Part shown: piece by piece, positions 1-25,800 of the stretch
Layout: each line of letters opens with the position of its first letter
Position numbering within the stretch: the first letter of the stretch is position 1
Source of the DNA: a virus
DNA length: 32,166 bases
Direction: 5' to 3' (one strand)
IMG/VR virus record: IMGVR_UViG_3300030108_005115
Coordinates: 1-32,166 of that record
Program-made: the position numbers and the translations under genes
Notes under the pieces: generated by a model
Database searches by the model: none
What the model was told of the DNA's origin: nothing
The model's input: only the letters and a program-made list of their open reading frames with translations

Positions 1-5
1 TTTTA

Positions 6-29
6 ATGTTATGCAAAAAAAAATAACAT
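6..29. repeat. Inverted repeat upstream of the ProV-like gene
   Basis: ATGTTAT (6-12) and ATAACAT (23-29) form a perfect 7-bp inverted repeat with a 10-nt A-rich centre. It lies just before the GTG start at 43. It could be a weak hairpin ending an upstream transcript or an operator. The window starts too close to it to tell. Confidence 0.35.
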
Positions 30-42
30 CAAAATAATATTC

Positions 43-780
43 GTGTCTTTTATAAAAATAAAAAATTTATATAAAATATATGGGAGCGATCCTCATGCTC
101 ATCTTTCTAAAGTTAAAAACGGAATGAGCAAACAACAATTACGACAAATGCATGATCATGTCCTAGCTCTAAATAATATAAACTTACATATAATGCCAAA
201 AACCTTTCAAGTGATAATAGGCCTGGAAGAGGCGGGTAAAACCACTTTGATGAAATTATTGAGTAAAACTATTGAACCCACTGATGGTGGACTATTTGTA
301 AATGGCACTACCGCCACGTTAAACGGACAATGCAATTTATTTAAAAATAAAACTGTGTTAGAGAACATAATGCACGGTATTGATGAGACTAAAACCTCTA
401 AAGCGCTTGAGTTGTTAGATTTAGTCAACTTATTAGAATATGAGAATAAGTATCCTATAGTTTTAAAAAAAGACATGGAGCAAAAAGTTGGTCTGATTAG
501 AGCGTTTATCAAAAACCCTGATATCTTATTATTGGATGAATGCACTCAGTATGTGGATGAATCTACTCAAGACGAGATACTAAATATGCTCATGAACTTG
601 CACAAAGAATACAAGAAGACAATTGTATTTATATCTCATAACGTAAAAGAAACTCTTAAGATTGCTGATCGTATAGCTATTCTGGAGGATGGAGCCTTAG
701 AGCAAGAGGGCACTCCAAAGGAGATCTTACGGAACCCAAAAACCAAACACATAATTGGTGGAATTCGTAATGATTTGTAG
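43..780 (+). CDS. ProV-like ABC ATPase domain with eroded signature and Q-loop
   Basis: This 245-residue protein closely resembles the ATP-binding half of the glycine betaine/proline transporter subunit ProV. The resemblance includes the ProV-type N-terminal extension (KIKNLYKIYG at 5-14, then a 'GMSKQQL' segment). Walker A is G60-L-E-E-A-G65-K66-T-T. Walker B is ILLLD (161-165) followed by the catalytic E166. The H-loop histidine is H199 in VFISHN. The part between Walker A and the helical domain is shortened and has no clear Q-loop. The LSGGQ signature is replaced by LKKDMEQ (141-147). The CBS domains of full ProV (about 400 residues) are missing, and no permease or binding-protein gene is nearby. 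ATP binding is plausible, but a normal transport cycle is doubtful. The start is GTG with no Shine-Dalgarno site. The position next to tail genes is odd for a metabolic gene. Family recognition is firm; function is unknown. Confidence 0.85.
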   Translation: MSFIKIKNLYKIYGSDPHAHLSKVKNGMSKQQLRQMHDHVLALNNINLHIMPKTFQVIIGLEEAGKTTLMKLLSKTIEPTDGGLFVNGTTATLNGQCNLFKNKTVLENIMHGIDETKTSKALELLDLVNLLEYENKYPIVLKKDMEQKVGLIRAFIKNPDILLLDECTQYVDESTQDEILNMLMNLHKEYKKTIVFISHNVKETLKIADRIAILEDGALEQEGTPKEILRNPKTKHIIGGIRNDL

Positions 781-792
781 TATATTATCAAA

Positions 793-2619
793 ATGCCCCT
801 AGTAAATTTTAGACCTGCACCAGGTATCAATAAAGAAGTCACTGACTATACAGGTCAGGGCAAATGGACTGATGGCGATATGGTGCGTTTTTTTCAGGGA
901 TCTGCTCAAAAAATAAAAGGTTGGGAGAAGTTTATAAGCACCACATTAGTAGGCGTAGCTAGAGATGCTCACGCTTGGGTGGGATTGGACGGAACTAGAT
1001 TACTTGCTGTGGGCACAGATAGAAAACTTTATATAGTCGTAGAGGGTTTGGCTTATGACATCACTCCAATAAGAGAAACACAGGCTTTAACTAATCCTTT
1101 TACTACAAATGGCACGACCTCAGTATCCGTTGCAGATAGTAGTCATGGAGCGGCTAAAGGTGATTTTGTTACGTTTGATTCTTTTAGTGCTATTGATGGC
1201 CTGGACATGAATAAAGAGTTTGAGATAACATCTATTACAGACAATAATAATTATGTTGTGACAGCTACATCAGCAGCATCAGGATCTACATCAGGTGGTG
1301 GAGGTAGTGGTAACGCTAAATATCAAATTAGCATTGGACCTGAGATATCAACATCTGCTTTTGGATGGGGCACAGATACTTGGGGTGCAGGAGGATGGGG
1401 TAGTCCATCTACATCATCAACAGTGACATTAGAAGCAAGACAGTGGTCTTTAGATAATTTTGGAGAAGATCTTATAGCCACCGTATTAAACGGAGGTGCT
1501 TTTAGGTGGGATACATCTAGTGGTGTTTCTACAAGAGCAGCTGCTATAACCAATGCACCTACTAGATCAAGACTTAGTTTGGTTTCTACACCCGACAGAC
1601 ATTTATTGTTTTTTGGCACACAGCCCACGATAGGTGGCACAAATGCACAAGATGATTTATTGTTAAGATTTTCAGATCAAGAAGATATCAACACATACCA
1701 ACCAACTGCTGAAAATACTGCAGGCTCGTTACGTATTGCTGACGGATCACGGATCGTGGCCGCAGAGCGATCAAGAGGTCAGATACTAGTGTGGACAGAT
1801 ACATCATTGCATTCTTTACAGTTTATTGGTCCACCGTTTACTTTTGGTTTAAGACAGTTAGGACAAAACTGCGGTATTGTTGGTAGTCATGCGGGCGTTG
1901 ATATAAATGGTGTAAGTTATTGGATGTCTCAAGACTCTTTCTTTTTATTCGATGGTTCTGTTAAGAAACTGCCTTGCACTGTAGAGCAGTTTGTTTTTAA
2001 TAATTTAAATGTTACAGGCGCTGAGAATGCTTTTGCAGGTCATAATGGTGAGTTTAATGAAATCATGTGGTTCTATCCTAGAACAGGATCAGATACGATA
2101 AATGCAATCGTAGCTTATAATTATACAGAGGGCACATGGTGGACAGGGACATTAGATAGAACTACTTGGTTAGATAGAGAAGTGTATGATAACCCTGTGG
2201 CTACAGATTATTTACCAACGACTACTGCAAACAATGAAGTCATTTCAGGACTAACTGATGGTGCAACACAATTGTTTTTACACGAAACAGGAAACAATGG
2301 TGATGGCGCTGCTATTACAGCATTTGTCAAGTCAGGTGTTGTGCAAATAGGTGAGGGTAATGATTTTGCTTTCGTGTCGAAACTAATACCTGATATAGAG
2401 GATCAAGAGGGTACATTAAACGCTAAGTTAGAATTTAAAAATTATCCAAACAATAGTACAAGTGTAACAAAAACAGTTTCATTTCAAGACAATACAGACT
2501 TTGTAAGTCTTCGTGGTAGAGGTAGAGAGTTTACAGTAAATGTTGTATCCAACACCACAGGAACAGCTTGGAGATTAGGCACACAAAGATTTGATATACA
2601 GCCTGATGGTAGAAGATAG
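793..2619 (+). CDS. Tail adaptor/stabilisation protein, P22 gp10-like beta-propeller
   Basis: A 608-residue virion protein. Its features match the phage stabilisation (gp10-like) group, which closes the portal channel in short-tailed phages: an N-terminal PGINK motif, blade-like repeats such as RLLAVGTDRKLY, GGAFRWD, RHLLFFG and ILVWTDTSLHSLQFIG, then a 'GVSYWMSQDSFFLFDG' segment, and a beta-rich C-terminus. A Ser/Gly-rich insert occurs near residues 160-175. There is no Shine-Dalgarno site; the ATG follows an AT-rich stretch 12 bp after the ProV-like gene. The gp10 link rests on motif layout and gene position, not alignment, so a general tail or nozzle role is safer than the exact name. Confidence 0.65.
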   Translation: MPLVNFRPAPGINKEVTDYTGQGKWTDGDMVRFFQGSAQKIKGWEKFISTTLVGVARDAHAWVGLDGTRLLAVGTDRKLYIVVEGLAYDITPIRETQALTNPFTTNGTTSVSVADSSHGAAKGDFVTFDSFSAIDGLDMNKEFEITSITDNNNYVVTATSAASGSTSGGGGSGNAKYQISIGPEISTSAFGWGTDTWGAGGWGSPSTSSTVTLEARQWSLDNFGEDLIATVLNGGAFRWDTSSGVSTRAAAITNAPTRSRLSLVSTPDRHLLFFGTQPTIGGTNAQDDLLLRFSDQEDINTYQPTAENTAGSLRIADGSRIVAAERSRGQILVWTDTSLHSLQFIGPPFTFGLRQLGQNCGIVGSHAGVDINGVSYWMSQDSFFLFDGSVKKLPCTVEQFVFNNLNVTGAENAFAGHNGEFNEIMWFYPRTGSDTINAIVAYNYTEGTWWTGTLDRTTWLDREVYDNPVATDYLPTTTANNEVISGLTDGATQLFLHETGNNGDGAAITAFVKSGVVQIGEGNDFAFVSKLIPDIEDQEGTLNAKLEFKNYPNNSTSVTKTVSFQDNTDFVSLRGRGREFTVNVVSNTTGTAWRLGTQRFDIQPDGRR

Positions 2620-25230: not shown

Positions 25231-25304
25231 CTCGTGGTGGCAGAAAGGCTATGCATCGCACTGCAACTGCGATCATGCGAGTTCGAATCTCGCCCACGAG
25301 TCCA
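25231..25304 (+). tRNA. trnC: tRNA-Cys (anticodon GCA)
   Basis: Acceptor CTCGTGG/CCACGAG (7 bp), D arm GCA/TGC with GG in the loop, and anticodon stem TCGCA/TGCGA with loop CTGCAAC giving anticodon GCA (25261-25264 region). The variable loop is TCAT. The T arm is GCGAG/CTCGC with loop TTCGAAT. The discriminator is T, as expected for tRNA-Cys, and CCA is encoded. All stems are perfect apart from the short D stem usual for this tRNA. It follows a gene stop with no gap and leads straight into the G-rich array, so it must be processed from a longer transcript. It may supply Cys codons or replace a host tRNA cut during infection. Confidence 0.95.
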
Positions 25305-25309
25305 TTTCT

Positions 25310-25800
25310 GGCAGGTACGGTCAGGTATTGCGGGGTAAGGTGCGTTGTGGAGCGTTGCGGCAGGCGTGGTAAGTTTGAGCGAGGTATGGTCGGTTTTGTT
25401 GCGGCAGGCAGGGTGAGGCTAGACATATTCCGGTGAGTTGAGGAATGGCGAGGCAGGCGTGGTGAGGTCGGGTACGTTCTGGTGGTAGCAAGTTGTGTCA
25501 AGGCAGGCGAGGTTAGGTGAGTTACGTTGAGGTGAGCTTAGTTCAGGAGTGGTATTTTTATGGCAGGCGTGGTGAGTTGACTTTAGTCGAGTTACGGCTA
25601 GGTACGGCAGGCCAGGTATGCCCAGGTTTGTTATGATCCGGACGGGTTAGGTAAGGCAGGCGGGGTGAGGTGCGTTCAGGTGAGTAGTGGATGTAGATGG
25701 CGAGCAGAGTTTTGGTTTGGCAGGTGTGGCGAGTTGTGGTTCGTTGGGTTACGATTGCGGTAGATTGGGGTATGGTGTTGTGAGGCGTGGATTGGCGAGG
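25310..25800 (+). repeat. G-rich quasi-periodic array of GGCAGG-headed units
   Basis: Nine units begin with GGCAGG, at 25310, 25359, 25403, 25452, 25502, 25562, 25606, 25655 and 25719. The spacings are 49, 44, 49, 50, 60, 44, 49 and 64. The unit head is close to GGCAGGCGTGGTGAGKT. The rest of each unit varies but is full of GGT, GAGTT and AGG words. The plus strand is rich in G and T and poor in C, quite unlike the AT-rich flanks. All frames have stops or give low-complexity peptides, so it is not coding. It fills the 512-bp gap between tRNA-Cys and the gene at 25817 and would be transcribed with both. Confidence 0.8.

Follow-up and report, generated by a model that had tools for sequence, protein, structure and literature searches.

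In ABC dimers, the signature and the D-loop act in trans on the ATP of the partner subunit, and in importers the region following the Q-loop borders the permease groove. Asymmetric ABC proteins, CFTR and TM287/288 among them, have NBD2-type subunits that pair a canonical cis ATP site with a degenerate signature, the latter being the part that would act on the site of the partner. For SAR11, glycine betaine is important both as a solute and as food, and phages carry enzymes that push host metabolism. For OpuA, passages of PMC11065425 and PMC10710835 identify a cationic helix-turn-helix of the NBD, close to the membrane, as the ionic-strength sensor, and according to parts of PMC8199443 differently tagged OpuA subunits from two genes form heterodimers in vivo, which are active once purified. 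Viral ABC transporters, as covered in sections of PMC6163359, are mostly from large eukaryotic viruses. For HTVC023P-type phages, PMC9599517 describes 80 genomes with many host-derived genes including 2OG oxygenases, and in its main text the terms 'ABC transporter', 'betaine', and 'transporter' each have zero occurrences. A phage-borne proV was absent from the results of our literature search.

The window, i.e. the whole stretch of DNA analyzed, is a virus record of 32,166 bp, and the gene under study is the following open reading frame:

43..780, + strand: gene for a predicted phage ProV-derived ABC ATPase, 245 aa, GTG start

The two complete relatives described below have GTG and TTG as start codons at the matching position. 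With 57.3 bits against Pfam PF00005 ABC_tran (cut-off 25), the product scores as an ABC ATPase. Its top NCBIfam model was TIGR01186 proV (164.7 bits), followed by other betaine/choline models; outside the betaine/choline group the highest score was 119.7. TIGR01186 was the top model for all three complete phage proteins (164.7, 163.5, and 157.0 bits), each at about half of the curated cut-off of 326.6 bits, which the cellular controls L127 (342.6 bits) and L086 (333.0 bits) exceeded. Since the ProV-family score tops those of other families but lies below the cut-off, the proteins are best described as ProV-derived and not as ProV by the family's own rule. The closest solved structure was L. 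lactis OpuA (7ahc; E 1e-40), and as this alignment begins at residue 4, the ProV-type N-terminal extension is present. With ProV as the highest-scoring family and the extension in place, the sequence identifies the product as a putative ProV-derived ABC ATPase, with the glycine-betaine importer ATPases (ProV/OpuAA) as nearest kin. Identity to 19 cellular ProV-type proteins was 33–42% across 242–245 positions; with ProV of the E. coli type it was 39%.

To find relatives, we ran three forms of the query and two motif patterns against IMG/VR (2.9 million contigs). Besides the window, copies were found in L002 (93% identity by BLAST, 94% when aligned), L003 (83%), and L095, the contig of which ends 19 aa into the gene; with four contigs the gene is rare. 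The copies in L002 and L003, two contigs from one sample, are complete and carry losses identical to those of the window protein. The end of L095 (IMGVR_UViG_3300030108_001361) equals window 1–98 apart from the final base, and this contig may be a neighboring piece of this phage or of one almost identical to it. In a tree with the 19 cellular ProV-type proteins, taken from plasmid records, the prophage-flank contig L127, and the phage-collection contig L146, with SAR11 ProV not among them, the phage clade had a support of 100 and a branch length of 1.3 substitutions per site, and it adjoined alphaproteobacterial sequences with weak support (68–74). This placement beside alphaproteobacterial ProV-type proteins and the top family TIGR01186 bear out the ProV origin proposed in the first-pass annotation. 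A search for a close cellular relative in genome contigs returned only two unrelated ABC proteins (28–29%), while 560 records of the phages collection matched, all with less than 60% identity and the best ones resembling host contigs.

For motif comparison, ProV of Sulfitobacter, Paracoccus, and Leisingera and the set of 19 cellular ProV-type proteins served as references. The following features were located:

91..153, + strand: ProV-type N-terminal extension, predicted helix-turn-helix, residues 17–37 (alignment and AlphaFold models)
220..243, + strand: Walker A, residues 60–67, GLEEAGKT (GLEESGKT in both relatives, GLSGSGKS in ProV; alignment)
306..307, + strand: site of a 17-aa deletion relative to ProV, directly ahead of the Q-loop strand (alignment)
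322..330, + strand: Q-loop remnant, residues 94–96, N-G-Q (F-Q-K in ProV; alignment)
463..483, + strand: degenerate ABC signature, residues 141–147, LKKDMEQ (LKKGMEQ and LKKGIEQ in the relatives; alignment)
523..540, + strand: Walker B and catalytic Glu, residues 161–166, ILLLDE (kept relative to LLLDE in ProV)
547..558, + strand: altered D-loop, residues 169–172, QYVD (SALD in ProV, Asp retained; alignment)
637..639, + strand: H-loop His199, retained (alignment)

The Walker A pattern GxxxxGK[ST], the Asp-Glu of Walker B, and the H-loop His are present in all three phage proteins. Within Walker A, GLSGSGKST of ProV has become GLEEAGKTT in the window protein, the middle glycine now being Glu, and the two Glu in this altered P-loop may weaken ATP binding. 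Thus, of the near-colinearity with ProV noted before, the N-terminal extension, Walker B/Glu, and the H-loop stand, while Walker A is kept only generically and is itself altered. Also the described shortening of the Q-loop region was found: 17 aa are gone ahead of the Q-loop, the placement moving by a few residues from one alignment to another, and with VFQK of ProV changed to LNGQ the Q-loop Gln is displaced by one. The stretch behind it was kept (LFKNKTVLEN vs. LFPHRTVLEN in Sulfitobacter ProV). A further 6 aa are absent from the helical domain, and at the C-terminus some 100 aa are lacking (245 aa vs. 337–395 aa in 17 cellular ProV-type genes).

The replacement of LSGGQ by LKKDMEQ in the window, likewise reported by the first-pass annotation, extends to the relatives: LSGGMQQ of ProV is LKK(D/G)(M/I)EQ, and LSGGQ is lacking in all three phage proteins. 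By motif search, LSGGMQQRV was found in 18 of the 19 cellular ProV-type proteins vs. LKK in 3/3 phage proteins; the sequence of the remaining cellular one, L141, lies outside the search pattern. At position 144, where the old signature had its last glycine, L002 and L003 have Gly and the window has Asp. Of the positions with at least 90% conservation among cellular ProV, those retained by all three phage proteins number 4/10 in the signature block, 3/10 in the Q-loop block, 5/9 in Walker A, and 5/7 in the N-terminal extension. Judged from the alignments, the elements for ATP binding in cis are retained and those reaching the ATP of the partner (signature, D-loop) are lost, so that an intact host ProV would be a plausible partner.

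AlphaFold2 models of middling quality were obtained for the window protein (4 rows; pLDDT 69.0; pTM 0.64) and the L003 copy (7 rows; pLDDT 74.7; pTM 0.74). Both show an ABC domain, in which the ProV-type extension forms two helices (residues 17–25 and 30–36/37), and solved NBDs aligned to the phage models with Z over 20, as expected for the ABC fold. In VIA-align, OpuA came first for the L003 model (7ahc_C; Z 23.2; rmsd 3.3 Å; 235 residues), on a par with other importer ATPases, and fourth for the window model (Z 21.8). Residues of about 77–88, around the 17-aa deletion, are among the lowest-certainty parts of the models. An interpretation of this deletion as loss of the OpuA ionic-strength sensor was rejected, as the sensor more likely is the N-terminal helix pair; we think, by our own assignment, that this pair is the sensor, and the phage protein retains it.

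The polymerase PolA matched that of 023Pt_psg01 (58.7% identity), HTVC023P (52.5%), HTVC027P (52.0%), and DSL-LC04 (50.2%), followed by phages with less than 40%; DSL-LC04, next after the three matches of the pelagiphage group, is a freshwater phage. The structural gene was 44.5% identical to that of DSL-LC04 and 42.2% to that of HTVC023P. By both genes, the phage can be assigned to the HTVC023P-type (pelagiphage) group. HTVC023P and HTVC027P were isolated on Pelagibacter HTCC1062, and SAR11 is the likely host group. An ABC_tran match was found in none of five related isolate genomes, HTVC027P included, in the same search in which the window was positive. In the transcript data given in parts of PMC12753301, host proVWX transcripts were reduced by both pelagiphages studied, HTVC022P and the relative HTVC027P, while most changed transporter genes rose. 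As HTVC027P is without a match, the decrease under this phage does not come from an ATPase gene of the present kind, and shows no more than the compatibility of lower proVWX with infection.

The proW and proX neighbors of a ProV-type gene are lacking: the permease domain PF00528 was found in 0/8 and the binding protein OpuAC (PF04069) in 0/5 virus records, all of which are fragments, so that a phage permease may lie elsewhere in a genome of about 60 kb. The ABC_tran search gave no second ABC ATPase in the window. Within these records, the earlier statement that transporter partners are missing holds. As no permease or binding protein was seen in the records and no second ATPase in the window, the partner would be one of the host, the obvious candidate being the ProV dimer on ProW.

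We favor, with a probability of roughly 0.4, a mixed dimer of the phage subunit and host ProV that would damp the host ProVWX importer. Beyond the ProV ancestry, the purifying selection, the cargo behavior, and the absence of partner genes from the fragment records, this is indirectly favored by the pattern of retained cis and lost trans elements, the retained stretch after the Q-loop, the subunit mixing in OpuA, and the proVWX decrease, the latter two as reported in parts of PMC8199443 and PMC12753301. The heterodimers of PMC8199443, formed without any dead subunit, make such mixing feasible in the OpuA family. A bacterial proV would have lost its C-terminal part and become exchangeable cargo of an HTVC023P-type phage, and selection would have reshaped the subunit to occupy one place of the host ProV dimer without normal working. 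The phage protein would use its Walker A, Walker B, and H-loop to bind ATP and would dock on the host permease ProW alongside host ProV, where LKK for LSG and the altered D-loop would fail to complete the ATP site of host ProV. The mixed transporter with at most one working site would be slowed or stopped, and glycine betaine import would be cut during infection. In a more specific version, which we put forward tentatively, the swapped-in subunit would turn the symmetric host importer asymmetric, one ATP site being competent and the other dead, and would thereby throttle osmolyte import at the level of the protein, a 'subunit-swap' takeover of a host pump. Both the 17-aa deletion and the displaced Gln of the Q-loop adjoin the permease-docking groove and could break docking. 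We infer the identity of the partner as host ProVWX, the mixed dimer, an inhibitory direction of the effect, and a benefit for the phage.

A second possibility, which we regard as doubtful but worth keeping in mind, is a soluble, ATP-bound switch that makes no contact with a transporter, has another partner in the host or the phage, and binds ATP without an ABC-type sandwich. Such a function would agree with the missing signature, D-loop, and Q-loop Gln, with the absence of partner genes from the virus records (fragments), and with a branch as long as 1.3 substitutions per site. On the other hand, neither the N-terminal region of ProV type nor the stretch behind the Q-loop would be needed by a free ATPase, and both are retained.

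Mixing with host ProV might also work in the opposite direction to the favored damping, with one working site and the normal control gone, so that betaine uptake is raised or prolonged and the gain serves as osmolyte and as nitrogen or glycine source. The intact cis site, the missing C-terminal ~100 aa, and the kept helix-turn-helix region fit this idea. We consider it unlikely, as the losses in Q-loop and signature speak against good coupling and the pelagiphage infections reported in parts of PMC12753301 reduce proVWX.

Still less can be said for a working homodimer in which a lysine of LKK replaces the lost serine/glycine contact with the ATP of the partner and which drives some permease. 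All three phage proteins share K142 and K143, while the following residue varies (D/G/G); both lysine codons are AAA throughout, leaving no silent change to reveal selection, and no phage permease was seen (PF00528 in 0/8 fragment records). We therefore rate it as quite improbable.

The genomic position of the gene bears on a role in the virion. Two features border it on the downstream side:

778..787, + strand: TAGTATATTA element ahead of the structural gene, its first three bases being the stop codon TAG of the ATPase gene
793..2619, + strand: P22-gp10-like virion structural gene (phrog_3287; profile match), border of the cargo slot

The structural gene, the homologue of which is labeled 'stabilization protein' in related isolates, begins 12 bp downstream of the ATPase gene, and this same-strand arrangement is shared by the window, L002, and L003. 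Upstream of the ATPase gene, L003 (201–3399) and L095 (1795–4995) have a run of cargo genes, in L003 with two 2OG-Fe(II) oxygenases (Pfam), one of which directly precedes the ATPase gene. In L192 and L194, which represent the empty site, the final gene of this run lies directly ahead of the structural gene: there, an oxygenase (93% and 89% identical to that of L095) is followed 21 bp on by the structural gene (97.9% identical to that of the window), without an ATPase gene. In alignment with these empty sites, the ATPase gene sits exactly between the stop of the oxygenase gene and the TAGTATATTA element. A chimeric assembly was ruled out by the same flanks in L003, the right neighbor in L002, and the left neighbor in L095.

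Furthermore, the slot was surveyed in the best 80 of at least 600 stretches matching the structural gene, L002 and L003 not being among these 80. The ATPase gene was absent from all of these 80 loci. Four loci had no gene start and four more had less than 750 bp upstream, leaving 72 readable slots of the best 80, all of which hold other genes, including 2OG-FeII_Oxy_5 (27/72) and 2OG-FeII_Oxy_3 (8/72) by Pfam and the phage 2OG oxygenase family phrog_81 (29/72), these families overlapping; some slots match families labeled as endonuclease V or glycosyltransferase. The ATPase gene is a one-gene cargo (moron or auxiliary metabolic) insertion of cellular origin, patchy between fixed neighbors. The empty sites and the absence from the other 80 loci, the best of at least 600, mark it as cargo and not as part of the virion. 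The 'tail region' of the first-pass annotation is thus right as to the P22-gp10-like gene 12 bp downstream and means nothing beyond an exchangeable cargo slot. Of the survey of gp10-adjacent copies that it suggested, L002 and L003 share the substitutions, while the 80 surveyed loci are without the gene.

A virion or assembly ATPase belonging with the gp10-like gene, which had also been proposed, would account for the close same-strand linkage in the window, L002, and L003. Given the absence from the 80 loci (best of at least 600), from L192 and L194 with their about 98% identical structural protein, and from 5/5 related isolate genomes, this role has very little in its favor and was dropped.

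Exact TAGTATATTA occurs a single time in the window. Within 40 bp ahead of the gp10-like gene, TAGTATATT was found in 32 of 76 other loci (L004–L083), or in 41 when one mismatch was allowed, making TAGTATATTA/TAGTATATT a possible candidate for a late promoter element of this phage group. A promoter/terminator scan of L003 gave nothing clear (14 promoter-like sites vs. 9.1 expected).

Elsewhere in the window, a non-coding stretch of ~500 bp (25305–25800) directly follows the only tRNA, tRNA-Cys (25231–25304). Its GC content is mostly 0.53–0.58 vs. about 0.40 downstream, and one strand is strongly G/T-rich. With up to 3 mismatches allowed, it contains GGCAGGCGTGGTGAG seven times at spacings of 44–93 bp, compared to 0.31 expected, and 0/100 shuffles attained seven. 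RNA folding of the stretch was not better than that of shuffles (z −0.21), and in Rfam the tRNA was the sole match. The array recurs with nearly the same spacings in L155, L160, L167, L179, L180, L186, L151, L169, and L148. A two-copy pattern search returned 41 loci, 34 of which carry at least three copies within 800 bp, and in the 11 of these 41 that were scanned for tRNAs, tRNA-Cys was found in three (L155, L160, L179).

The ATPase gene in its altered form is under purifying selection. Pairwise dN/dS values (Nei-Gojobori) were 0.063, 0.125, and 0.136, with bootstrap limits of 0.03–0.112, 0.076–0.196, and 0.081–0.214, and the three complete copies are free of stops and frameshifts; values of 0.06–0.14 and the lack of stops argue for purifying selection and not for decay. 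A viral copy with an intact signature was not found in IMG/VR with the query forms and motif patterns used. Thus, neither an intact-signature relative nor dN/dS near 1 or stops, named at the outset as evidence against the annotation, appeared. That the gene is a recently captured passenger heading for loss, as the lost motifs and the greater distance of the window copy from ProV at A64 and D144 could suggest, is hardly tenable with these dN/dS values (upper limits at most 0.214) and intact reading frames. The dS is lower in the ATPase gene than in the adjoining structural gene (window/L002 0.44 vs. 1.09; window/L003 0.74 vs. 0.95), which suggests that the gene moved between phages after divergence of the structural gene, or that codon constraint differs.

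If the favored mixed dimer with host ProV is true, a selected, motif-broken transporter subunit would be a different way to steer the host, namely by joining its machine, and the effect would bear on the handling of dissolved organic matter by infected marine cells. With ProV/OpuAA (TIGR01186; L. lactis OpuA 7ahc/7ahd/7ahe) the phage protein shares the ABC fold, the N-terminal helix-turn-helix, Walker B/Glu, and the H-loop. It differs by the lost or moved signature, D-loop, and Q-loop Gln, by the 17-aa and 6-aa deletions, and by the missing C-terminal region, its gene has no adjoining permease or binding protein gene, and the protein scores about half of the family cut-off. A canonical cis ATP site with a degenerate signature is what it has in common with the NBD2-type subunits. 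In CFTR and TM287/288, the partners co-evolved in one operon or chain, whereas the supposed partner of the phage protein is the symmetric ProV of the host. As with other auxiliary metabolic genes of HTVC023P-type phages, e.g. the 2OG-Fe(II) oxygenases in the genomes described in PMC9599517, the gene lies in the same slot region, is host-derived, and has no virion role; while those described there encode enzymes, it encodes one membrane-transporter subunit with a broken catalytic motif. It is host-derived cargo of a known sort, unusual in that a core motif was lost and kept lost.
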